Below the pieces are notes generated by a model. It was given only the letters and a program-made list of their open reading frames with translations. It was not told the origin of the DNA and searched no databases. Below, piece after piece: positions 17,240-29,681 of a DNA stretch of 64,000 bases. Source of the DNA: an uncultured Spirochaetia bacterium (GTDB lineage: Bacteria; Spirochaetota; Spirochaetia; CAKZLE01); the NCBI GenBank assembly GCA_937125225.1, contig CAKZLE010000034.1:1-64000 (forward strand), in the 5' to 3' direction. The position numbers and the translations under genes are program-made. Numbering within the stretch: position 1 is the first letter of the stretch; each line of letters opens with the position of its first letter.

Positions 17240-17815
17240 TTGAGCATGAACGGTTTAGCCTATCCCTTTAAAAAACTCATGTATTGTCCCGCATGTGGGG
17301 CACCGACCTTTAAACCGAAGAAGATAGATAAGTCACCAACGGGGCAACTGAAGACCAAACAGTTCGGCTGTACGACCTGTGGCTTCGAGTTCTTCAGGAA
17401 TGCTGCTGCAAGTACCATGGCTGTCATCATGAAGGATGAGGATACCATCCTCATGATCAGAAGAGCACGGGAGCCTGCTAAAGGGACCCTTGATCTTCCC
17501 GGTGGGTTCGTGGATCCCGGGGAACGGTCTGAGATCGCTATGATCCGGGAGGTCTATGAAGAGACCAATCTCCATGTCTCCTCCTATGAGGTTCATCCGA
17601 AGACCTACTGTAATGAATATCTATTCGGAGGGGTCCTCTACGATACACTTGATATCGTCTATATCTGCAGAGTCAAGAACTGGGATGATCTGAGAAGTAA
17701 TGATCCTGAAGAGGGAGAGCCTCTTCTCATCAAGCTAGATGAGCTTGATCCGAAAGAGGTCGGACTTGATTCAGTTCGGCGGTTCGTTACCGATTTCCTG
17801 CACTCTAGAGGATAG
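17240..17815 (+). CDS. Nudix hydrolase with N-terminal zinc ribbon
   Basis: 191 residues. A zinc ribbon comes first (CPACG near 15-19 and CTTCG near 43-47). The Nudix domain follows, with the box G-x5-E-x7-REVYEETNL near residues 88-110; the usual Gly of EEXG is Asn. This architecture resembles NudC-like and ADP-ribose/NADH pyrophosphatases. It cleaves a nucleoside diphosphate linked to another group. The substrate is not predictable. The reading starts at TTG with AGGTGG 5 bases away; an ATG two codons on (17246) is the alternative. Its last 11 bases overlap the convergent AEC gene. Confidence 0.85.
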   Translation: MSMNGLAYPFKKLMYCPACGAPTFKPKKIDKSPTGQLKTKQFGCTTCGFEFFRNAAASTMAVIMKDEDTILMIRRAREPAKGTLDLPGGFVDPGERSEIAMIREVYEETNLHVSSYEVHPKTYCNEYLFGGVLYDTLDIVYICRVKNWDDLRSNDPEEGEPLLIKLDELDPKEVGLDSVRRFVTDFLHSRG

Positions 17816-18707
17816 AGACCATAAAGGGAAAGACGAAGGGAGTGATGACCGTTGTGAGGATGATCAGTGATATGATGAGCTCCTTGTCCATATCAAATCG
17901 ATCACTCAGGGCGAACACGGTGATCGCTACCGGCATCGATGCCTCCAATATTGCCACATCGAAAGACTCCCCAAGAGGTAAGAGTCTTGAAACAAGAAAG
18001 AACACAGCAGGGAAGATGATCATCTTGAGAGTCGCTAAGGCAGCGATAGGCTTCCAGAGTTTCTTCAGTGATATCTTCCTATGCATAAAGATACCGAGCC
18101 CGATGAGCACTACCGGTGATGCAGAGCCTTCGATCATCTTCACTGTCTTCAGTATCGGTTGAGGAAGCTTGATCTGTAACAGGACTACGATAAGACCTCC
18201 CGCTATAGCTATGATAAAAGGGCTCGAGATGATCTGTCTCAAGATCTCTGAAATGTGTTTTTCCTCTCCTGAGAGGGTCTCAAGAAGAAAGAGGCCTAAG
18301 GTGAATAGACTGATACTGTAGGCTGCCGTGATGATACTGATGGTAGCTCCCGTCTCGGGTGCTATCGATGTGATCAGCGGAAAACCAAGATACCCTATAT
18401 TTCCAAAATACCCCGCAATCAGGATGACCATCCCGATCTCTTTCGGTATATGAAAGGCTCTTATGAGAAAATAGGCGAGCAACATGAAGGCGCAGATAAT
18501 GGCTAGAGTGGTCACAAGGGTAGGTACCTGATGTGCAAGCACCTCCTTGTCGATATCGATGAGGTTCGAGAAGATCAGTATTGGGAATCCTATATAGAGT
18601 CCATACTTGTTGAGGATCGGGACCCATGAATCATGAGCTATCTTGATAATACTCAGGAAGAATCCAAAAACGATTATCAGGAATACGGGTAGAATCTGCG
18701 CTATCAT
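17805..18707 (-). CDS. AEC-family transporter (auxin efflux carrier-like), copy 1
   Basis: 300 residues with about 10 membrane helices in two five-helix halves, the AEC/PIN-like fold. Typical spots are GLYIGFPILIFSNL near residue 37, NIGYLGFPLI near 104 and PVVLIGLGIFM near 200. Family members export or exchange small organic anions such as malate or malonate; the substrate is unknown here. GAGAGG precedes the ATG. A paralogue lies directly upstream in the same direction and aligns without gaps over its whole length. Confidence 0.85.
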   Translation of the reverse strand: MIAQILPVFLIIVFGFFLSIIKIAHDSWVPILNKYGLYIGFPILIFSNLIDIDKEVLAHQVPTLVTTLAIICAFMLLAYFLIRAFHIPKEIGMVILIAGYFGNIGYLGFPLITSIAPETGATISIITAAYSISLFTLGLFLLETLSGEEKHISEILRQIISSPFIIAIAGGLIVVLLQIKLPQPILKTVKMIEGSASPVVLIGLGIFMHRKISLKKLWKPIAALATLKMIIFPAVFFLVSRLLPLGESFDVAILEASMPVAITVFALSDRFDMDKELIISLIILTTVITPFVFPFMVSIL

Positions 18708-18746
18708 GAGAACCTCTCACCTTCTATTAGTACAGCATTAGTATCA

Positions 18747-18773
18747 TAAAAAGCAGCTAATGCAAACATGCTG
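18747..18773 (-). terminator. Terminator between the two AEC genes
   Basis: Minus-strand hairpin CAGCATG-TTTG-CAT-TA-GCTG with a 2-base bulge, followed by CTTTTTATG. It separates the two AEC genes into different transcripts, or lowers expression of copy 1. Confidence 0.6.
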
Positions 18774-18796
18774 ATTTCGTTTTTCAGATAAGTTTT

Positions 18797-19702
18797 CTAA
18801 GAGATCAGTGCGACATACATAGGGAAGAGGAGAGGTGAGATAAGCGTAGAGATGACTATCATCGAGGCAGCTAGCTCCTTGTCGAAAGGGTATCGGTCAC
18901 TCAGGGCGAAGATACTCACTGCCGAGGGCATCGCAGCCTCTAGGGAGGCTATCTGAAAGGCTTTCCCTAACGATAGGATCGAGCCGGTGAACATGAAGAC
19001 TGCAGGGAATACGACCATCTTCACAACGAACAGAAGCAAAAAGGGGAGGAGGATAGATCTGATCGATATTTTTCGAAACATGAATATCCCAAGACTCACT
19101 AGTACCACCGGACCTGCAGCTGCTTCTATCATATAGAAGGAGCTCATCAGCGGCTCCGGCAGCTGGATCTCTGTATAGATCACGATGACCCCGCAGATGA
19201 TAGCTATAAGAAAGGGGCTGGTGATGATCTGCCTGAATTGTGCAGCAGGGGATCTATTCTCACCTGTCAATGAATCCAAAAGAAATATTCCCACGGTATA
19301 GAGTGATATCGTATAGGCTGCGACTATCAGACCTATCGTCGGTTCACTACCTGGTATGATGGCAGTTATGAGGGGGAATCCAAGATATCCCGTATTCCCA
19401 TTGAACACGGCTACGATTAAGAGGGTGCCGATCGAGAGCGGTACCTGAAAGACTCTGATTGTGAGGTAGGTGATTAGCATGAAGGTGCAGATGATCGCTA
19501 TGGTGATACCTACTACCGGAAGTTGTGAGATAAGTAGTTCTCGGTCTAACTCGATCATATTCACAAAGATCAGAATAGGAAAGCCCACATAAAGTCCGAA
19601 CTTATTGAGAACAGGAACCCAATCTTTAGAAGCTACTCGCAGAAGCGAGAGCACAAAACCGAAGGAGATCACGAGGAATATTGGTACGATTTGCTGTATC
19701 AT
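18797..19702 (-). CDS. AEC-family transporter, copy 2
   Basis: 301 residues, about 10 membrane helices, aligning end to end with the neighbouring copy; about half of the residues look identical by eye. Shared blocks include WVPVLNKFGLYVGFPILIF near residue 28, NTGYLGFPLITAI near 104 and FALSDRYPFDKEL near 267. The pair is a tandem duplication that has diverged. No strong ribosome site is seen: AAGGTG lies about 13 bases upstream. The substrate is unknown. Confidence 0.84.
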   Translation of the reverse strand: MIQQIVPIFLVISFGFVLSLLRVASKDWVPVLNKFGLYVGFPILIFVNMIELDRELLISQLPVVGITIAIICTFMLITYLTIRVFQVPLSIGTLLIVAVFNGNTGYLGFPLITAIIPGSEPTIGLIVAAYTISLYTVGIFLLDSLTGENRSPAAQFRQIITSPFLIAIICGVIVIYTEIQLPEPLMSSFYMIEAAAGPVVLVSLGIFMFRKISIRSILLPFLLLFVVKMVVFPAVFMFTGSILSLGKAFQIASLEAAMPSAVSIFALSDRYPFDKELAASMIVISTLISPLLFPMYVALIS

Positions 19703-19889: not shown

Positions 19890-19917
19890 TTGACAAAAAA
19901 CATAATACTTATATAAT
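19890..19917 (+). promoter_or_regulatory. Consensus sigma70 promoter of the MarR/peptide-modification operon
   Basis: TTGACA at 19890-19895, a 16-base spacer and TATAAT at 19912-19917. Both boxes match consensus fully, the strongest promoter in the window. Transcription should start near 19924, inside the operator-like repeats. Confidence 0.85.
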
Positions 19918-19945
19918 TGCTATTAACAATAATTGCTAATGGCAA
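19917..19945. promoter_or_regulatory. Paired operator-like sites for the MarR regulator
   Basis: Two 13-base copies, TTGCTATTAACAA (19917-19929) and TTGCTAATGGCAA (19933-19945), agree at 10 of 13 positions. The second is a palindrome with TTGC/GCAA arms. They touch the -10 box and cover the expected start of transcription, so a bound dimer would block the promoter. Autoregulation by the MarR protein is inferred. Confidence 0.55.
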
Positions 19946-19961
19946 CTATAAAGGGAAGTAT

Positions 19962-20357
19962 ATGATAGATTCGATCCTGGAATTAAAAAGCAGATGTTCA
20001 TTCGCCGAAGAGATCGGCAAGACCCATAACCTGACTGCACGTGATGTGAGTTGTCTTAGTATGATAGCGATGCATGGTGGTATCTCACTCAAAGAGATCG
20101 CAGAGGAGATTGGTCTATCAACCTCAAGAGGCAGTAGGGTCGTCAACCGATTGAAAGAACGTGGATTCATCGTGGTGATTCCCGATGAGGTCGATCGTAG
20201 GGCGGTGAAACTCTCACTGTCTGATTCTGGGAATGAATGCTATCAAGATCTCATCAAAGAGAAGCTTGCCTGTGAACAACGTTTGAGTTCAGGTCTTACC
20301 CCTGAAGAACAGAAAAAGATACAAGAGGGGTTATCTCTCCTCTTGAAAGTGATGTAG
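19962..20357 (+). CDS. MarR-family transcriptional regulator
   Basis: 131 residues from the ATG with AAGGGAAG just upstream. An earlier in-frame ATG at 19917 lies inside the promoter and is rejected. The winged-helix core is clear: LTARDVSCLSMIAMHGGISLKEIAEEIGLSTS, then SRVVNRLKERGFI and the wing DEVDRRAVKLSLSDSG. Flanking helices form the usual dimer domain. MarR proteins often sense phenolics, oxidants or thiol-reactive agents. One cysteine near residue 13 and one near 33 could be sensors, but this is speculative. First gene of the operon, 14 bases before the methyltransferase. Confidence 0.87.
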   Translation: MIDSILELKSRCSFAEEIGKTHNLTARDVSCLSMIAMHGGISLKEIAEEIGLSTSRGSRVVNRLKERGFIVVIPDEVDRRAVKLSLSDSGNECYQDLIKEKLACEQRLSSGLTPEEQKKIQEGLSLLLKVM

Positions 20358-20371
20358 GAGAAGTACAGGAG

Positions 20372-21022
20372 ATGAATACACAGACAACGAATGCGATAAA
20401 CATCAGATATTCTGAATTAGCAGAGACTAGCTGCTGCCTCTCATGTGGAGGAGCTATCAATCATAGTAATGCGACCAACGGAGAGATCTGTGTCGATCTC
20501 GGTAGTGGAAGAGGAACAGATGTCCTCAGACTCGCCGAATCGGTAGGGGCTCAGGGCTTCGTCTTTGGTGTCGATATCTCAGATGGGATGTTGGCAAAGG
20601 CAGAGAGACAAGCTGCAAGATTGGGTGTCACGAATGTGGATTTCATCAAATCTGATCTGGAGACGATACCACTTGAGAGTGATACGGTTGATCTCCTGAT
20701 CTCGAACTGTACTATCAATCATGCGAATGACAAGCAGACGGTCTGGAATGAGGTCTTCAGAGTACTGAAGCCTGGTGGGAGATTCACCGTCAGCGACATC
20801 TTCTCGTTACAACCAGTACCTGAAGAGTATCGGAACGATCCCGCTGCAGTGGCAGAATGCTGGGCTGGGTCGGTAACGAAAGAACTCTATAGTGAACAGC
20901 TTCAAAAAGCAGGATTTTTGGATGTGCAGGTTCTCGAGGAGAGTGAAGCCTATCCGAAAGGGGCGATCGAAGTAGTGAGTTGGACTATCCTGGGGTATAA
21001 ACCTACCCTGGATGATAAATAG
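20372..21022 (+). CDS. ArsM-like SAM-dependent methyltransferase
   Basis: 216 residues, a class I methyltransferase. SAM motif VDLGSGRGTDVLRLA sits at 41-55, GVDISDGML at 66-74 and LKPGGRFTVSDI at 132-143. SNCTINHANDKQTVWNEVFRVLKPGGR and AECWAGSV closely resemble arsenite methyltransferase. The two ArsM cysteines of the SNC and C-x-GA positions are kept (C113, C163), and an N-terminal CCLSC (C21, C22, C25) may supply the third thiol. It is shorter than usual ArsM. It may methylate As(III), another soft metalloid or a thiol. The setting beside a Cys peptide and a radical SAM enzyme makes a peptide-linked substrate possible. AGGAG abuts the ATG. Confidence 0.75.
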   Translation: MNTQTTNAINIRYSELAETSCCLSCGGAINHSNATNGEICVDLGSGRGTDVLRLAESVGAQGFVFGVDISDGMLAKAERQAARLGVTNVDFIKSDLETIPLESDTVDLLISNCTINHANDKQTVWNEVFRVLKPGGRFTVSDIFSLQPVPEEYRNDPAAVAECWAGSVTKELYSEQLQKAGFLDVQVLEESEAYPKGAIEVVSWTILGYKPTLDDK

Positions 21023-21053
21023 GTAATAGACCTTAGTCTATAGGAGGAATTTG

Positions 21054-21149
21054 ATGAGAACACTTATCAAAAAACGACCTGCAGAGCAGAAAGCGGTAGC
21101 TCAGTGCTGCGCTAAGAATTCAAAAGTGGTAGCAGGTTGCCACGACTAA
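21054..21149 (+). CDS. 31-residue cysteine-containing peptide, candidate modified-peptide precursor
   Basis: A small gene between the methyltransferase and radical SAM genes. AGGAGG lies 6 bases before its ATG, one of the best ribosome sites in the window. The product starts MRTLIKKRPAEQKAVA, a basic leader-like half, and ends QCCAKNSKVVAGCHD, with C18, C19 and C29. It stops at TAA, so there is no selenocysteine reading. A stable hairpin follows directly. Short peptide, strong translation start, hairpin, then a SPASM maturase is the typical order of RiPP precursor genes. I do not recognise the sequence as a named family, and a metal-binding or thiol-donor peptide is an alternative. Confidence 0.72.
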   Translation: MRTLIKKRPAEQKAVAQCCAKNSKVVAGCHD

Positions 21150-21157
21150 GTTTTTTA

Positions 21158-21188
21158 GGCAGACAGTCTGGCTTACAGGCTGTCTGCC
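21158..21188 (+). terminator. Attenuator-like hairpin between peptide gene and radical SAM gene
   Basis: 13-bp stem GGCAGACAGTCTG / CAGGCTGTCTGCC, with one G-U pair and a 5-base loop. It is followed only by ATCTTTGACC, so partial termination or mRNA stabilisation is likely. Either would raise peptide output relative to the downstream enzymes. Confidence 0.7.
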
Positions 21189-21215
21189 ATCTTTGACCGG
21201 AAAAGGATGACATTC

Positions 21216-22532
21216 ATGGAAAAATCAAAATATCTTCTATTTGGAAGACTCAAAGACTCTCAGGAGTACTTCATCATCAACCCCCTGACAAAGCAGGCAG
21301 ACATCATGGAGGCTGCTACAGCAGAGGCCTTCTTGAAGGGTGAATATGAGAATGAGGCAGACCTGATCGAGAAGGGTTACCTTGTGGATCCCCAAGAGGA
21401 GAGCAGAGCCTATAAGCGTGCATACCTGGATTTCATAGATGAAAGAGATGCCGATGAGATTCAGATCTTCTATGTTCCCACCTATGCCTGCAACTTCTCC
21501 TGCTCCTACTGCTATCAGGCAGAGTATACTGAACAGAGTCTAGCCTATCAGCCTGAGATCATAGATGCGTTCTTCTCCTATGTTGATAGAGAGTTTGCCG
21601 GTAGAGATAAATATATCACGATCTTCGGAGGAGAACCGCTGCTCTCGAATGAACCAACGAAGAAGAATATCGCTAAACTGTTGGAAGAGGCTACGAAAAG
21701 ATCTCTCGGGATAGCGATCGTGACCAATGGTTATACTCTTAAAGACTATGTACCGCTTTTCTCTGATGCATTCATCAAAGAGATCCAGGTCACCGTCGAT
21801 GGGCCACAGGAGATCCATGATCAGAGAAGGATGCTCCACGGTGGGGCGGGGACATTCTCTCAGATCATCGAGGGGATCGATGCCGCTCTTGAGGCTGGGA
21901 TCCCTATTAATCTGAGAGCTGTCGTAGATAAAGAGAACTTCCCTCACCTTATTGAGCTCGCACATTTTGCGACCGAAAGGGGGTGGAGTGAGAATCCTCT
22001 ATTCAAGACTCAGCTTGGACGAAACTATGAGCTTCATAGTTGCCAATCGGATCAATCAAAACTCTACGATCGGGTGAGTCTCTATGAGGATCTGTATGAG
22101 ATGATCAAAGAACATCCAGAGTTCCTGACCTTTCATACCCCTGCATATTCCCTGTCGAAGTTCCTCTTCGAGCATGGTGAGATGCCAGACCCTCTTTTCG
22201 ATTCCTGTCCGGCCTGTAAGACCGAATGGGCCTTCGATTCTTCAGGTAGGATCTACTCCTGTACAGCGACGGTCGGAAAGGACGATGAGGTACTCGGGAC
22301 CTTCTACCCGAAGGTGACAAGAGCCGATGATATTATCGAACAATGGGAAGAACGAGATGTGACTACGATTCCCGAATGTAAAGACTGTGGATTACAACTA
22401 GCTTGTGGAGGTGGTTGTGGTTCGGTGGCAAAGAATAGAACCGGTTGTATTCAGTCCTCTGATTGTAGACCGGTAGATAAGCTGTTGGGCATGGGGTTAT
22501 CACTCTATTTCCAGCAATTAACACAAGATTAA
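21216..22532 (+). CDS. Radical SAM/SPASM protein, candidate peptide maturase
   Basis: 438 residues from the ATG with AAAAGGA 8 bases upstream; an ATG three codons earlier overlaps that site. The N-terminal 60 residues (FIINPLTKQADIM...LIEKGYLV) resemble the leader-recognition front end of SPASM maturases. The radical SAM core has C92-x3-C96-x2-C99 (CNFSCSYCYQ) for the SAM-bound 4Fe-4S, GGEPLLSN near 145 and VTVDGPQEIHDQRR near 190. The C-terminal SPASM region has CPACKTEW, YSCTATVG and CKDCGLQLACGGGC for auxiliary clusters. Such enzymes install thioether, C-C or epimer changes in peptides. The 31-residue peptide is the obvious candidate substrate. Confidence 0.85.
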   Translation: MEKSKYLLFGRLKDSQEYFIINPLTKQADIMEAATAEAFLKGEYENEADLIEKGYLVDPQEESRAYKRAYLDFIDERDADEIQIFYVPTYACNFSCSYCYQAEYTEQSLAYQPEIIDAFFSYVDREFAGRDKYITIFGGEPLLSNEPTKKNIAKLLEEATKRSLGIAIVTNGYTLKDYVPLFSDAFIKEIQVTVDGPQEIHDQRRMLHGGAGTFSQIIEGIDAALEAGIPINLRAVVDKENFPHLIELAHFATERGWSENPLFKTQLGRNYELHSCQSDQSKLYDRVSLYEDLYEMIKEHPEFLTFHTPAYSLSKFLFEHGEMPDPLFDSCPACKTEWAFDSSGRIYSCTATVGKDDEVLGTFYPKVTRADDIIEQWEERDVTTIPECKDCGLQLACGGGCGSVAKNRTGCIQSSDCRPVDKLLGMGLSLYFQQLTQD

Positions 22533-22563
22533 GCTAAAAGAACAGATATATTAGGAGAGAACA

Positions 22564-23844
22564 ATGGCTGGAAAGATTAAAGAGATACAGGCAGCAGATT
22601 ATAAGGATGAGGTACTGAACAAAGAGAGGGTCGTCGTAGATTTCTATTCGACAGAATGCCCTCCTTGTGAAGCGTTAGCAACTAAATATGAGGCACTCAG
22701 TGAGCTCTATGGTAACCATATCTCCTTCGTGAAGATCTTCAGACAGGGGAATAAAGAGCTTGCACAAGAGCTTGATGTCACAGGATCCCCTACGGTCCTC
22801 TTCTATGAGAAGGGTGAACTCGTAGGTGATAGACTCAGTGGAGGGATCAAGAGATCTGCTCTGATGGAGAATCTTGATTCACTCTTGAATGAGCAAGAGG
22901 TCAAAGAGGTCAAAGCTGAGATCACACCTATAGAGACTAAGAGCGATGTCATAGTGCTTGGAGGAGGACCTGCAGGACTGACTGCCGGGATCTATCTTGC
23001 TCAGGCTCATGCCAAGGTCATTCTTGTCGATCCTGCACTTCCTGGTGGATATGTAGCAACTACTCATCAGGTATCGAACTATCCTGGATTCGTCGACCCA
23101 CAACCGGGATTCATGCTCTCACACTTCATGAGTGAACAGGCTAAGGCTAATGGAGTCGAATATCGTGTAGCTGTGGACGTCTCAGATATCGATCTTGAGA
23201 AGAAGCAGGTTGTCATCGATGGAGTAGAGACTATCAAGGCTAAGCATATCGTCATCGCGACCGGTTCAAGACCGAGACCCCTCGGACTTCCAGGAGAGAA
23301 CGAATATCGGGGTAATGGTATCTCCTACTGTGCTACCTGTGATGCAAAATACTTCGATGATAAAGAGGTTATTGTCATCGGTGGAGGTAATTCCGCTATC
23401 GAAGAGTCTTTATTCATTACCAGATTCGCCAAGAAGGTGACGATCGTTCACCAGTTCGCAGAACTTCAGGCGAACATGGCAGCTCAGCAGGAGGCTTTTG
23501 ACAATCCTAAGATCGAGATCCTCTTCGAGCATGAACCAAGAGAGTTCAAGAAACATGGGACAATGGATATGGGAGTTGTTGTCGAAGATCTCAAGACTGG
23601 AGAGCTCAAAGAGCTCAAGAGCGCTGGAATCTTCGTCTTCGTAGGATTCCTCCCGAACATAGACTCCTTCTCTGAGGAACTTACTCTTGATCAGTGGGGT
23701 TACCTTGATGCGGATGAGTCGATGAAGATGAACCTCGATGGGGTATATGCAGTCGGTGATGTGAGATCTAAAGCCTATAGACAGATAACTACCGCTGTTG
23801 CAGATGGTACGATCGCCGCGATCACGATCTCTAAACAGCTATAG
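22564..23844 (+). CDS. Thioredoxin-thioredoxin reductase fusion
   Basis: 426 residues. A thioredoxin domain (about 1-110) has a CPPC active site at 32-35. A thioredoxin-reductase-type flavoprotein (about 125-426) has FAD motif GGGPAG at 133-138, redox CATC at 256-259 and C-terminal FAD site GVYAVGDV. The second nucleotide motif is GGGNSA, and the HRRxxxR residues that bind NADPH phosphate are missing (VHQFAELQ instead). NADH, ferredoxin or another donor is therefore likely. The order Trx-TrxR is the reverse of the Mycobacterium leprae fusion. It should reduce disulfides for its operon partners, as ArsM needs. AGGAG lies upstream. Confidence 0.88.
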   Translation: MAGKIKEIQAADYKDEVLNKERVVVDFYSTECPPCEALATKYEALSELYGNHISFVKIFRQGNKELAQELDVTGSPTVLFYEKGELVGDRLSGGIKRSALMENLDSLLNEQEVKEVKAEITPIETKSDVIVLGGGPAGLTAGIYLAQAHAKVILVDPALPGGYVATTHQVSNYPGFVDPQPGFMLSHFMSEQAKANGVEYRVAVDVSDIDLEKKQVVIDGVETIKAKHIVIATGSRPRPLGLPGENEYRGNGISYCATCDAKYFDDKEVIVIGGGNSAIEESLFITRFAKKVTIVHQFAELQANMAAQQEAFDNPKIEILFEHEPREFKKHGTMDMGVVVEDLKTGELKELKSAGIFVFVGFLPNIDSFSEELTLDQWGYLDADESMKMNLDGVYAVGDVRSKAYRQITTAVADGTIAAITISKQL

Positions 23845-23845
23845 T

Positions 23846-24418
23846 ATGAACTGTCTAGCATGTAAGAACAAATCCTGCAGGTCGACGGTATCCTGCGGGA
23901 TAGAGAGCTTCGATACCACAAAGAGTCTTGAGCTCTACCATGCCGATGAACAACAAGAGATCGTCCAGAAGGCAGCCTACCTCGTCGATGGGGGAAGGGC
24001 TGGTGAACTCTCAAGGATCGAAGAGGTCATCGAGTTCGCAAAGACTATGGGCTATAAGAGGGTCGGGCTTGCCTACTGTTATGGGATGGAACCGCTTGCG
24101 ATGAAGGTACAACGACTCTTCAAGGCTGCAAAGGTTCCCGTCGTCGGGGTCTCCTGTACGGTCGGAGGAGTGGCCCAGAAGGATATCAACAGGGAGAGTG
24201 ATCTTCCAGGCGTATCCTGTAATCCAGTGAATCAGGCCTCTCAGCTTAATGCACAGGGTGTGGACCTCGCTGTCACTATCGGATTATGTATGGGACATGA
24301 TATCCTGTTCAACAGGATCTTCGAAAAGGATATCACTAACCTCGTCGTGAAAGATAGAGTCTATGGCCATGCTCCTAGCAAGGGGATCGATGCTCAACAT
24401 GAGAGACTCGATAGCTGA
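23846..24418 (+). CDS. DUF1847 cysteine-rich protein
   Basis: 190 residues, starting 1 base after the fusion gene; MNCLACKNKSC matches the family's cysteine-rich beginning. Further conserved-looking cysteines occur in AYCYGMEPLAMKVQRLF, VSCTVGG, GVSCNPVNQA and IGLCMGHD. DUF1847 is common in anaerobes and has no established function; the cysteines suggest metal or metalloid binding. Tight coupling to the redox fusion suggests a shared pathway. It has no ribosome site of its own beyond the preceding stop region. It appears to be the last gene of the MarR operon. Confidence 0.78.
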   Translation: MNCLACKNKSCRSTVSCGIESFDTTKSLELYHADEQQEIVQKAAYLVDGGRAGELSRIEEVIEFAKTMGYKRVGLAYCYGMEPLAMKVQRLFKAAKVPVVGVSCTVGGVAQKDINRESDLPGVSCNPVNQASQLNAQGVDLAVTIGLCMGHDILFNRIFEKDITNLVVKDRVYGHAPSKGIDAQHERLDS

Positions 24419-24490
24419 TGAAGATCCCATGAACTTATCTTCTCTCATATGATATACTCAAATGAAAGATAAGAAATCATGGAGGATCAA

Positions 24491-24700
24491 ATGGAAAACA
24501 GTTGGACTTGCCCTAAATGTGGTAATACAGGATATCAGACAGATCAGATGGCGGCTACCGGTGGAGGACTCTCGAAATTCCTTGATGTCCAGAGTAAGAG
24601 GTTCAATACCATATCCTGTACGAATTGCGGTTTTACCGAATTCTATCGGGCGGAGACTAGCGGTATAGAGAATCTCTTCGATCTATTCCTCAGTCATTGA
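24491..24700 (+). CDS. Small zinc-ribbon protein (COG3478-like)
   Basis: 69 residues with CPKCG near 7-11 and CTNCGFTEFYR near 43-53, forming a two-knuckle zinc ribbon. It resembles small predicted nucleic-acid-binding Zn-ribbon proteins found singly in many bacteria. GGAGG lies 5 bases before the chosen ATG; an ATG four codons earlier overlaps that site. About 70 bases separate it from DUF1847, so it may or may not belong to that transcript. Confidence 0.75.
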   Translation: MENSWTCPKCGNTGYQTDQMAATGGGLSKFLDVQSKRFNTISCTNCGFTEFYRAETSGIENLFDLFLSH

Positions 24701-25310: not shown

Positions 25311-25340
25311 ACTGCTTAACTCATTACTGAGGTGAATAAA

Positions 25341-28300
25341 ATGAAGAACTATTACTTAGGTATAGATATAGGCTCTACAACGGCCAAAGTCATTCTCACG
25401 ACTGAAGAGGGTAAGATCCTCATGAGTGACTATCAGAGACATAATGCAGAGGTATTCACGATACTGCTCAAGATGCTCGATAAGATAAAAGAGATAATCG
25501 ATCTAGATGATACCATTTCTGTCCTGTTCACAGGGACTGCTGGGATGGGGGTCGCAGAGAAGGCAGAACTTCCGTTCGTTCAGGAGGTCGTAGCATCAGG
25601 AGAGGTCGTGAAACAGTACCTTCCTGAGGTTCGGACCTTCGTCGATCTTGGTGGTGAGGATGCGAAGATCATCTTCTTTGATGACAACTTGAAACCTGAC
25701 ATCAGGATGAACGGTAACTGTGCAGGCGGGACTGGAGCCTTTATCGATCAGATGGCAGAACTCCTGAATGTACCGGTCTCTAAACTCAGCGACGTCGCTA
25801 GAGAACATAAGACCTGTCACCCGATCGCATCGCGTTGTGGTGTGTTTGCCAAGACTGACATTCAGAACCTGATCAGTCGGGATGTACCACCCTCCGATAT
25901 CTCAGCATCGATATACCGGTCAGTATCATTCCAGATTATCAGCGCCCTTGCCCGAGGTATGGATATAACACCGAAACTTCTTTTTGCCGGTGGTCCCTTC
26001 ACCTTTCAACCTATGCTCAAAGAGACCTTCCTTGAAGTCCTGGGCCTCACAGAAGATGATGTAGTCGATCCTCAGAAGATAGATGTGAAACTCACTACTG
26101 AGTTCATCCCTGCTGCCGGTGCCGCACTACGGGCAAAGACACGGGGGGTACCCTTCTCGATAGGTGATCTGATCAAGAAGATCTCTGCTTCACAGAACAT
26201 CAAACTTGCAGCAGCTGCCACGTTACCGAGACTCTTTGCCAATGCTGATGAATTCCATGCCTGGGAGAAGAGATTCGATCGTTATAAGATCAAGCAGGTT
26301 GAACTCAAAGACCTTGATGGTAAGGATGTCATCCTCGGGATCGATTCAGGTTCTACTACGACGAAGATCGTCTTGATCGATGAAGATGGTAGGTTAGCCT
26401 TTACCTACTATTCCTCAAATAAGGGTAATCCGGTAGATACCGTCTTGGGTGGTCTTCAGGAGTTAGCTCAGAAGATCAAGGAAAGCGGTTCTTCGGTCAA
26501 TCTGGTAAGGACAGCCTCAACAGGTTATGGAGAGGACCTTATCAAGTTCGCCTTCGATCTGGATGACAGCTATGTCGAGACGATAGCCCACTATAGGGGG
26601 GCACGGTTCTTCGAACCCGATGTCTCGTTCATCATGGATATCGGTGGACAGGATATGAAGGCGATAACAGTCAAGGATCGAATCATACAGAACATCGAAT
26701 TGAATGAGTCCTGCTCTTCAGGGTCTGGATCGTTCATCGAGACATTCGCTAAATCGATGAGTACGACAGTCCAGGATTTCGCTGCTGCAGCATGTCTTGC
26801 AGATAATCCCTATGATCTAGGTACTCGATGTACGGTTTTTATGAACTCCAAAGTGAAACAGGTCCTCCGAGAGGGTGGAGCCCTCGGTGATATCTCAGCA
26901 GGTCTTGCCTATTCGGTCATCAAGAACTGTCTCAATAAGGTCCTTAAGATCTCAGATCCAAAGAGTCTTGGAGAGCATATCGTAGTGCAGGGGGGAACCT
27001 TCAGGAATCCTGCAGTCCTACGTGCGATGGAACTGGTCGCAGGAAGATCAGTGATCAGGCCTGACCGTTCTGAGTTGATGGGAGCCTGGGGTGCGGCACT
27101 CCTTTCGAGAGACCTCTATCAGAAACAGGAGAAGTCAGTTGAATCCTCCTTCATCGGATGGGAGAATCTTGGACTTGCTGCAGCCTATGAGAAGAAGAAC
27201 CTAACTTGTAGAGGGTGTGAGAATCTATGCGCAGTCGTACGGCTTTCCTATCCAGAGAGAAAGAAAGAAGATGGCACAAAAGCTCAGTTCTATACCGGTA
27301 ACAAGTGCGAGAAGATATTCTCTAATCAGGCAAGGGGCTCCCGTACCGGAGTGAACCTTCCCGAGATCAAACGAGAGTTGCTCTTCAGTAGATCAGGTTC
27401 CCCGGTGACGACTTCGAGCAGGGGTAGGATCGGTATCCCGAGAGTCTTGAATATCTGGGACGATTTCCCCTTTTGGAATACTCTGTTCACCTCCTGTGGA
27501 TTCGAAGTCGTTCTCTCAGATCCTTCAACACAGGACCTTGTGACTAAAGGGTATAGTTCCGTGATGTCAGAGAATATCTGCTTCCCGGCGAAGATCACGA
27601 ACGGCCATATTCTCAATCTGGTTGAGAAGGGTGTTGATCGTATCTTCTACCCGAAGATCAGGTACACCAAAGAAGAGTACAGTAATGTATTGAACAGCTA
27701 TAATTGCCCTGTAGTCACAGGTTATCCACAGGTGATAGAATCATCTATCGATCCTAATACACGGTATGGTGTTCCTCTCGATAATCCCTCCTTCAGCTTC
27801 GACAGAAAGAAACTTCTGATCAAACGTAGCATCAGCTACTTCAGTGAGTTAGGTGTCCCCAAGGATGTTGTGGCCAATGCTGTTCGGAAGGCTATCAAAG
27901 AGAGTGAGAGTGTAAAAGCAGAGCTGAGAAACAGGACTGAGAAGATCATCAAAGATGCTGAACATGAGGGGAGGAAGGTGATTCTTCTTCTCGGGCGTCC
28001 CTATCATATAGACCCCTTCGTGAACATGAAGATTCCTGAGATCGTGAGTGCTCTCGGCTTCGATGTGATCACTGAGGATTCAGTTCCACTGCCGCCACAA
28101 CAGAAGCTTAGAGATGTTCAGGTATTGACTCAATGGACCTATCCTAACAGACTCTACCATGCTGCTAGTTGGGCAGGACATCAAGATAATGTCGAAGTCA
28201 TTCAACTCAACTCTTTTGGGTGTGGACCTGATGCCATCACTGTCGATGAGGTCAAATCGATCCTCAATCAGTATGGTAAGAATCCGACACTCATCAAGAT

Positions 28301-29681
28301 CGATGAGATGACAAGTCCCGGCTCTGTGAAACTTCGTGTACGATCTCTCATAGAATCTCTCAAGGGGAGAAAGATGAATTTCAAGGGGTCTAAGATCGAA
28401 CGGATCCAGACTAGGATCTTCACGAAGAAAGATAAGAAGCGAACGGTCATTGCACCACAGTTCTCTCCCTTCTATACAGACTTCATCATCGCTGCATTCA
28501 GGCATCAGGGCTATACGATCGATGTACTCCCCATGGCAGACAGAGAAAGCATCGAACTTGGTCTCAGATATTCTAACAATGATATCTGTTACCCTGCCAC
28601 CATTGTCATCGGAGATCTCATAAAAGCTTTACGTAGCGGTAAATACGACCTGAAGAACGTTGCAGTCGGGTTGACTCAGACTGGTGGTCAATGTCGTGCT
28701 TCTAGCTATGTGTCTCTATTGAAACGGGCGCTGGTGAGAGCCGGCTATGATGATATTCCTGTAGTGACAGCCTCGACGAACAACAGGTCGAGTAGGATGC
28801 TCAATGACCAGCCTGGCTTCTCTGTCAGGAAACTCCCGTTCACCCTTACTGGGCTCTACGGGATGGTCTATGGAGATGTCCTTGCGAAGCTCTACTACTA
28901 TGCTGCGGTAAGAGAGGTCGAGAAGGGTTCAGCTATGAAATTGGTGAACATCTATCTTGATAAAGGTAAGAGAATAATAGACCATAAATCCCAGAAGAAG
29001 ATGTTCAGACTCCTTGAAGAGGCAGTCGATGCGTTCAATGCTCTTCCCATGCATGATCGACCCGATATCCCCAAGGTGGGGATCGTAGGTGAGATCTATG
29101 TGAAGTTCAATCCCTTTGGGAATCTCTATACAACTGACTGGCTCATAGCAAAGGGAATCCAGCCTGAAGTCCCACCTCTTATAGACTTCTTCCTGATACC
29201 TCTGATCTCGACTCAGTACAATGCTAAGAACAATATCGAAGAGGTGAAACTGTTTATCATTCACTTGCTTTCAAGAGCCGAGGGATATGTAGACCGGTTC
29301 TTCTCAAGGGCGAACAATATACTCAAACAGTTCGATGGTGAGTTGACTCCATTCCACTCGATCAAGAAGATGGCTCATAGGGCGGAAAGTATCATAGACC
29401 TGATCAATCAGTTCGGTGAGACCTGGCTTCTCTCCGGTGATATCGTGACATTTGCAGAGGAGGGGGTAGATACGATCGTCTGTCTACAGCCCTTTGGTTG
29501 TATTGCTAACCATGTCATCGCTAAAGGGGTAGAGAAGAGGATTCGCACACTTTATCCACAATTGAATCTTCTCTTTCTCGATATGGATTCAGGGATGAGT
29601 GAAGTCAATGTCGCGAACAGGATGGAGTTCTTAGTAGATTCCCTTATCTCTGATGAGGTAGTCCAGAAACAGAACTCATAG
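25341..29681 (+). CDS. Two-module acyl-CoA dehydratase activase (2-hydroxyacyl-CoA dehydratase activator family)
   Basis: 1446 residues. There are two BcrA/BadF-type ATPase modules. The first starts GIDIGSTTAKVIL and has NGNCAGGTGAFIDQMA near 125. The second starts GIDSGSTTTKIVLID near 335 and has NESCSSGSGSFIETFAKSM near 455. The GIG/CAGGTG cysteines bind the bridging 4Fe-4S of such activators. After a CRGCENLC cluster near 625 comes a long region related to DUF2229 and the dehydratase D component. Activators inject an electron into 2-hydroxyacyl-CoA dehydratases at the cost of ATP. No dehydratase subunits are nearby. ATG at 25341 with GAGG upstream; a GTG nine bases earlier is possible. Confidence 0.85.
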   Translation: MKNYYLGIDIGSTTAKVILTTEEGKILMSDYQRHNAEVFTILLKMLDKIKEIIDLDDTISVLFTGTAGMGVAEKAELPFVQEVVASGEVVKQYLPEVRTFVDLGGEDAKIIFFDDNLKPDIRMNGNCAGGTGAFIDQMAELLNVPVSKLSDVAREHKTCHPIASRCGVFAKTDIQNLISRDVPPSDISASIYRSVSFQIISALARGMDITPKLLFAGGPFTFQPMLKETFLEVLGLTEDDVVDPQKIDVKLTTEFIPAAGAALRAKTRGVPFSIGDLIKKISASQNIKLAAAATLPRLFANADEFHAWEKRFDRYKIKQVELKDLDGKDVILGIDSGSTTTKIVLIDEDGRLAFTYYSSNKGNPVDTVLGGLQELAQKIKESGSSVNLVRTASTGYGEDLIKFAFDLDDSYVETIAHYRGARFFEPDVSFIMDIGGQDMKAITVKDRIIQNIELNESCSSGSGSFIETFAKSMSTTVQDFAAAACLADNPYDLGTRCTVFMNSKVKQVLREGGALGDISAGLAYSVIKNCLNKVLKISDPKSLGEHIVVQGGTFRNPAVLRAMELVAGRSVIRPDRSELMGAWGAALLSRDLYQKQEKSVESSFIGWENLGLAAAYEKKNLTCRGCENLCAVVRLSYPERKKEDGTKAQFYTGNKCEKIFSNQARGSRTGVNLPEIKRELLFSRSGSPVTTSSRGRIGIPRVLNIWDDFPFWNTLFTSCGFEVVLSDPSTQDLVTKGYSSVMSENICFPAKITNGHILNLVEKGVDRIFYPKIRYTKEEYSNVLNSYNCPVVTGYPQVIESSIDPNTRYGVPLDNPSFSFDRKKLLIKRSISYFSELGVPKDVVANAVRKAIKESESVKAELRNRTEKIIKDAEHEGRKVILLLGRPYHIDPFVNMKIPEIVSALGFDVITEDSVPLPPQQKLRDVQVLTQWTYPNRLYHAASWAGHQDNVEVIQLNSFGCGPDAITVDEVKSILNQYGKNPTLIKIDEMTSPGSVKLRVRSLIESLKGRKMNFKGSKIERIQTRIFTKKDKKRTVIAPQFSPFYTDFIIAAFRHQGYTIDVLPMADRESIELGLRYSNNDICYPATIVIGDLIKALRSGKYDLKNVAVGLTQTGGQCRASSYVSLLKRALVRAGYDDIPVVTASTNNRSSRMLNDQPGFSVRKLPFTLTGLYGMVYGDVLAKLYYYAAVREVEKGSAMKLVNIYLDKGKRIIDHKSQKKMFRLLEEAVDAFNALPMHDRPDIPKVGIVGEIYVKFNPFGNLYTTDWLIAKGIQPEVPPLIDFFLIPLISTQYNAKNNIEEVKLFIIHLLSRAEGYVDRFFSRANNILKQFDGELTPFHSIKKMAHRAESIIDLINQFGETWLLSGDIVTFAEEGVDTIVCLQPFGCIANHVIAKGVEKRIRTLYPQLNLLFLDMDSGMSEVNVANRMEFLVDSLISDEVVQKQNS

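Follow-up and report, generated by a model that had tools for sequence, protein, structure and literature searches.

What is the purpose of encoding an ArsM-like methyltransferase, a radical SAM/SPASM enzyme and a thioredoxin-thioredoxin reductase (Trx-TrxR) fusion around an open reading frame of only 31 residues? The question is raised by the window analysed here, namely a stretch of 64,000 nucleotides from the genome (G000) of an uncultured Spirochaetia bacterium, which amounts to 3.43 Mb in 36 contigs and is 97% complete. Six co-directional genes were read from the sequence in the order of MarR regulator, ArsM-like methyltransferase, peptide, radical SAM/SPASM enzyme, Trx-TrxR fusion and DUF1847 protein, with intergenic gaps of 14, 31, 66, 31 and 1 bases. 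This re-reading agreed with the gene order and gap lengths of a preliminary description made from the DNA letters, and the consensus promoter noted there was also borne out. Pfam and NCBIfam scans confirmed the gene families (MarR_2, Methyltransf_31/ArsM-type, Radical_SAM, Thioredoxin plus Pyr_redox_2, and DUF1847), and the features of the operon are as follows.

19890..19917, + strand: promoter TTGACA-N16-TATAAT, matching the consensus at 12 of 12 positions
19913..19944, + strand: 16-nt element present as two direct repeats, ATAATTGCTATTAACA and ATAATTGCTAATGGCA, 81% identical, spacing 16
19962..20357, + strand: MarR-family regulator (Pfam MarR_2, E 3e-14)
20372..21022, + strand: ArsM-like SAM methyltransferase, 216 aa (NCBIfam PRK11873, alignment with CmArsM, tree)
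21054..21149, + strand: precursor peptide, 31 aa (tblastn, locus comparison, core conservation)
21158..21188, + strand: hairpin with a 13-bp stem between the peptide and maturase genes (z = -6.0)
21216..22532, + strand: radical SAM/SPASM peptide maturase, 438 aa (Pfam Radical_SAM, SPASM motif, AlphaFold fold match)
22564..23844, + strand: Trx-TrxR fusion, 426 aa (Pfam Thioredoxin plus Pyr_redox_2)
23846..24418, + strand: DUF1847 protein, accessory (PF08901, E 5e-35)

The two copies of the 16-nt element, which overlap the -10 box of the promoter, are a candidate operator for the MarR regulator, the gene of which keeps its position in most Spirochaetia loci and is mostly missing from the loci of other phyla. 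An alternative upstream ATG (21207) is possible for the radical SAM gene. As to the flanks, two similar adjoining genes resembling AEC-type transporters (17805-19702, - strand) are divergent from the operon, and one such gene is retained beside the operon in the nearest relative (L021). Downstream are a Zn-ribbon gene (24479-24700), common only to L021 among the Spirochaetia loci compared, and a gene (25332-29681) whose 1449-aa product has two activase stretches and belongs to the CoA-dehydratase activase (BcrA/BadF) type.

A conserved peptide and its co-inherited enzymes

The 31-residue open reading frame (MRTLIKKRPAEQKAVAQCCAKNSKVVAGCHD) is a real gene, far beyond chance. It is composed here of the leader MRTLIKK and the C-terminal 16-residue core AQCCAKNSKVVAGCHD, with a linker between them that varies in length among loci. 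The leader is generally MK(S/T)L(I/V)KK, chiefly MKSL(I/V)KK, and the core is a near-invariant AQCC(A/S/T)K-x-S-x4-GCHD with fixed spacing. Indeed, when 30 diverse peptides were aligned, A16, Q17, C18, C19, K21, G28, C29, H30 and D31 were found to be invariant, with slight variation at A20 (A/S/T) and S23 (S/T/A). Among 82 distinct core DNAs matching AQCCAKxSx4GCHD, furthermore, third codon positions drift freely and the key residues stay fixed, which is the signature of a translated and selected peptide. The peptide hence has the marks of a RiPP precursor, namely a leader with a conserved core under purifying selection, as judged from sequence comparison, and a conserved short gene co-inherited with a modifying enzyme. 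The linker of some precursors (L060, L088, L106, L118 and L148-L153) contains an additional CC pair (or CGC), and AQCC is duplicated in the L060 precursor. An NCBIfam scan of the 30 peptides gave no family match; VcpD (ArsD-related) was considered as the peptide family and, with an E value of 0.1 in 2 of the 30 peptides only, was rejected as a coincidence of the CC motif.

Upon searching 84,980 species genomes, 80 loci were kept from at least 258 relatives, and these span Spirochaetota, Bacteroidota, Ignavibacteriota, Myxococcota, Elusimicrobiota, Margulisbacteria and Acidobacteriota, plus one record titled delta proteobacterium. A conserved small reading frame with CC and GCHD-like ends, for which the preliminary description had suggested looking between the ArsM-like and SPASM genes, was present in 77 of the 80 loci; the ArsM-like protein was found in 76, Trx-TrxR in 74 and DUF1847 in 21. 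Many of the absences coincide with contig ends, and four of the six loci without Trx-TrxR have no more than 354 nt of contig downstream. In a tblastn search with the 31-mer, 12 further Spirochaetia loci had the peptide between the ArsM-like and radical SAM genes, ending in AQCCAKxSxxxAGCHD every time. As for the four Spirochaetia loci without the peptide, three (L031, L032 and L034) are cut inside the radical SAM gene by the contig end, and the fourth (L036) has a different radical SAM family with 31% identity.

The link between the peptide and the enzyme was also evident from their co-occurrence in 393 Spirochaetota genomes. Core DNA in its exact pattern was found in 29 of these genomes, with no match of the reversed-pattern control, and matches to the radical SAM profile in 38; the two occurred together in 28 (Fisher p 2.5e-33). 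In the single genome with the pattern only, the contig ends about 380 bases past the peptide, and 9 of the 10 genomes with the radical SAM enzyme only have near-identical cores (CCSK, CCTK or other) outside the exact pattern, the tenth being cut by a contig end. Near-identical CCSK/CCTK cores persist even where the identity of the radical SAM enzyme falls to 36-45%. The core is rarer in Bacteroidota (5 of 297 sampled genomes, the centre genome counted). Two Bacteroidota loci (L081 and L098) have the radical SAM and Trx-TrxR genes with no peptide; in both genomes, the core is found elsewhere, adjoining an ArsM-like gene. These split genomes still hold all of the parts, which are thus considered to be inherited together. 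The preliminary description had named homologous loci lacking the peptide gene and a separation of the genes in relatives as observations that would speak against it, and both points came out in its favour, given the counts of the peptide described above and the retention of peptide and ArsM-like genes in the two split genomes.

A second, more divergent class of the radical SAM enzyme (L154-L163; 36-45% identity) accompanies cores ending in SGCHD; in several of these loci, Trx-TrxR precedes the ArsM-like gene. Radical SAM relatives of 28-32% identity in two genomes were set aside, one (G034) without an adjacent peptide or ArsM and the other (G011) by identity alone. A tblastn search of plasmids gave nothing beyond radical SAM relatives of 25-30% identity, and no match was found in the viral contigs searched.

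Comparative genomics therefore supports the peptide-modification operon that the preliminary description had proposed, with the 31-mer as the conserved partner of the SPASM and ArsM-like enzymes and with the Trx-TrxR reductant co-inherited. Maturation of the peptide by the enzymes of the operon is well supported by genomics, and the radical SAM and ArsM-like enzymes very probably act on it.

The modifying enzymes and a proposed pathway

The radical SAM enzyme has the cluster motif CX3CX2C (residues 92/96/99) and a seven-Cys SPASM motif (C331, C349, C388, C391, C397, C401 and C417), and all ten Cys residues are invariant in 56 of 56 sequences. Its AlphaFold model (pLDDT 92.4) was best matched in the PDB by CteB (5wgg; E 3e-18, TM 0.70), followed by anSME, SuiB and ChlB, and CteB was also the best PDB match in a sequence-profile search. 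As modelled, the enzyme is thus a SPASM maturase nearest in fold to the thioether-forming CteB, albeit with approximately 16% identity in the fold alignment. The scores were nonetheless under every curated NCBIfam cut-off (CefB, 135 of 600 bits; PapB, 118 of 340; SCIFF, 89 of 425; mycofactocin maturase, 63 of 265), so that the reaction is not assignable from family. The ranthipeptide maturases CteB-SCIFF, PapB and CefB have in common with our system a radical SAM/SPASM enzyme with an N-terminal extension and an adjoining tiny Cys-rich precursor; here, in contrast, the precursor belongs to no NCBIfam family and is accompanied by the ArsM-like and Trx-TrxR partners. PapB belongs to a related family and tolerates Cys-Xn-Asp spacings of n = 0-6 (PMC9413430); here the core terminates in C-H-D, with which a thioether or related cross-link would be consistent.

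The ArsM-like methyltransferase scores 195 bits on PRK11873, below the cut-off of 263 for canonical arsenite methyltransferase. Its C25, C113 and C163 are nonetheless aligned with C72, C174 and C224 of CmArsM (4fr0), the cysteines reported to be conserved in ArsM (PMC7248198), and this three-Cys As(III) site is kept in 89 of 89 ArsM-like sequences. While sharing the fold family and the Cys triad with ArsM (PRK11873/NF008823), the ArsM-like proteins have a short N-terminus (SCCLSCG) and SNC-x-INH where canonical ArsM has INLS, and they form a separate clade, divided from canonical ArsM in the tree by a 99/93 branch. Scores on the ArsM model also fall into classes: 173-198 bits for the ArsM-like proteins, at least 245 for full-length canonical ArsM, and no more than 76 for the rest bar one truncated match. 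In relatives, the ArsM-like protein occurs only at the peptide locus, and several genomes hold both kinds; because genomes with canonical ArsM keep both, their roles would differ. At three loci (L169, L173 and L174), the canonical ArsM gene contains an in-frame TGA within its coding sequence and probably encodes a selenoprotein ArsM of a known kind. ArsM is also paired with a radical SAM enzyme in the arsenosugar (ArsM and ArsS) and arsinothricin (ArsL and ArsM) pathways, but these have small-molecule substrates and no known precursor peptide, and the ArsM models of both are far under cut-off here.

The Trx-TrxR fusion has the catalytic motifs CPPC (32/35) and CATC (256/259), and the four Cys residues are kept in 99 of 99 sequences; thioredoxin serves as a reductant of ArsM enzymes. 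The DUF1847 protein has eight invariant Cys residues and an LC(L/M)GHD motif in the alignment of loci, and its AlphaFold model is confident and Rossmann-like (pLDDT 90.6). A fold search gave no convincing PDB relative (best E 1e-3, a weak likeness to the Fe-S protein Dph2), and the protein was not mentioned in the papers searched.

Taken together, we consider it likely that the operon is a dedicated RiPP pathway, in which the 31-mer is controlled by MarR, cross-linked by the SPASM enzyme, methylated by the ArsM-like enzyme and reduced by Trx-TrxR, with the product kept in the cell. We infer the chemical steps and the biological role as follows. The MarR-controlled operon would give the 31-residue precursor. 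A stable hairpin follows the peptide gene in most loci and would permit more peptide than enzyme to be made; lying between the peptide and maturase genes, it probably sets their relative expression. As judged from the CteB-like fold, the N-terminal domain of the radical SAM enzyme probably reads the MK(S/T)L(I/V)KK leader. The enzyme would then cross-link the core AQCCAKxSxxxxGCHD, most likely through a thioether that involves one of the core's three invariant Cys residues, as in CteB- and PapB-type maturases, although the position of the cross-link is a guess. With its three-thiol As(III) site, the ArsM-like enzyme may then methylate a soft, thiolate-held centre, which would be either a sulfur of the peptide or a metalloid bound to the peptide thiols, and the fusion would supply the NADPH-driven thiol reduction that ArsM chemistry needs. 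The finished peptide would most likely remain intracellular, serving as a thiol ligand or a redox cofactor.

Possible roles of the product

One possible role, to be held tentatively, is in sulfur metabolism, where the modified peptide would serve inside the cell as a small carrier of redox equivalents or sulfur, following a logic like that of PQQ or mycofactocin; the peptide would be recycled by Trx-TrxR, and the ArsM-like enzyme would S-methylate or cap a Cys residue of the peptide. The near-invariance of the core across phyla is consistent with this role, and so are the neighbours of the Bacteroidota loci: DUF302 (26 loci), thioredoxin (24), DUF6132 (19) and a pyridine nucleotide-disulfide flavoprotein resembling sulfide:quinone reductase (13), with genes for YeeE/YedE sulfur transport and OsmC also recurring. 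This set of neighbours points to sulfur and thiol chemistry; in the Bacteroidota loci L054-L118, where the recurrent thioredoxin is secreted, it is a possible sulfur or thiol module. These neighbours are, however, not universal and are missing from the Spirochaetia operon, no client enzyme is recognised, and the role of a redox or sulfur carrier leaves the conserved As-site triad unexplained.

The triad itself, being invariant, argues for a trigonal thiolate-bound centre. Thiols of the mature peptide might accordingly bind As(III) (or Se, Sb, Te) and the ArsM-like enzyme methylate the bound metalloid, resulting in a peptide-based detoxification or an arsenopeptide, which we regard as doubtful. 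The co-inheritance of Trx-TrxR would suit an ArsM-type reaction, and Acr3 is commoner in genomes carrying the locus (12 of 15 versus 17 of 45 among 60 relatives, p 0.007), a difference confounded by ancestry and genome size. None of these 60 relatives, nonetheless, had Acr3 near the locus, and no ars gene (ArsR, Acr3/ArsB, ArsC) was recognised among the gene groups recurring in at least three loci, unlike in an arsenic resistance operon. Neither Acr3 nor canonical ArsM is present in this genome or in its nearest relative, the regulator is MarR or none and never ArsR, and the differing roles of the two methyltransferases, as discussed above, also argue against arsenic as the target, as do the sulfur- and thiol-related neighbours in Bacteroidota.

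Many SPASM-modified Cys peptides are secreted antimicrobial or signalling ranthipeptides, but such a role is improbable for the peptide described here. As far as their annotation reaches, the recurrent neighbours include no recognisable gene for a dedicated exporter, a processing protease or immunity, and the core is almost invariant between phyla, which is not the case for bacteriocins. These features make an intracellular ligand or cofactor likelier than an antimicrobial.

Very improbable is an attenuator, in which the reading frame would be a Cys-codon leader peptide with an idle product and the hairpin would control the radical SAM gene. Cys codons do precede a stable hairpin (z averages -3.1 across the 69 loci and is below -2 in 68% of them), but it is weak or absent (z above -1) in about a fifth of loci. 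The residues other than Cys (A, Q, K, S, G, H and D) change little or not at all although synonymous codons vary, the core is C-terminal with fixed spacing, and the peptide is away from the radical SAM gene in two genomes.

A probable peptide product shared among phyla

In the open-access papers searched, no description of the peptide or the operon was found, with subscription papers outside this scope and an earlier report thus possible; also, NCBIfam offers no model for the peptide family or for the gene set, and no modifying enzyme reaches the cut-off of a specific model. PQQ and mycofactocin, whose near-invariant cores proved to be those of cofactors, resemble our system in having a short precursor, a SPASM enzyme and a wide distribution, but the core differs here, the mycofactocin maturase model is far from its cut-off as described above, and no client enzyme is known here.

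In conclusion, the system is most likely a radical SAM RiPP family with an unusual set of enzymes and unusually strong conservation. Its 16-residue core, nearly unchanged in several phyla and nearly always accompanied by the same three enzymes, suggests one defined product under strong selection but not a variable natural product, and this product looks undescribed and widely used rather than a local curiosity. It may even be, although we put this forward as a possibility short of an expectation, that anaerobes of many phyla share one conserved peptide cofactor or ligand: a SPASM enzyme would build it, a metalloid-type methyltransferase would complete it, and it would carry arsenic, another soft element or sulfur. 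We know of no RiPP whose biosynthesis includes an enzyme of the ArsM family; if true, therefore, a SPASM-made peptide finished by such a methyltransferase would be the first, and the link of radical SAM peptide maturation to ArsM-type chemistry would join two fields.
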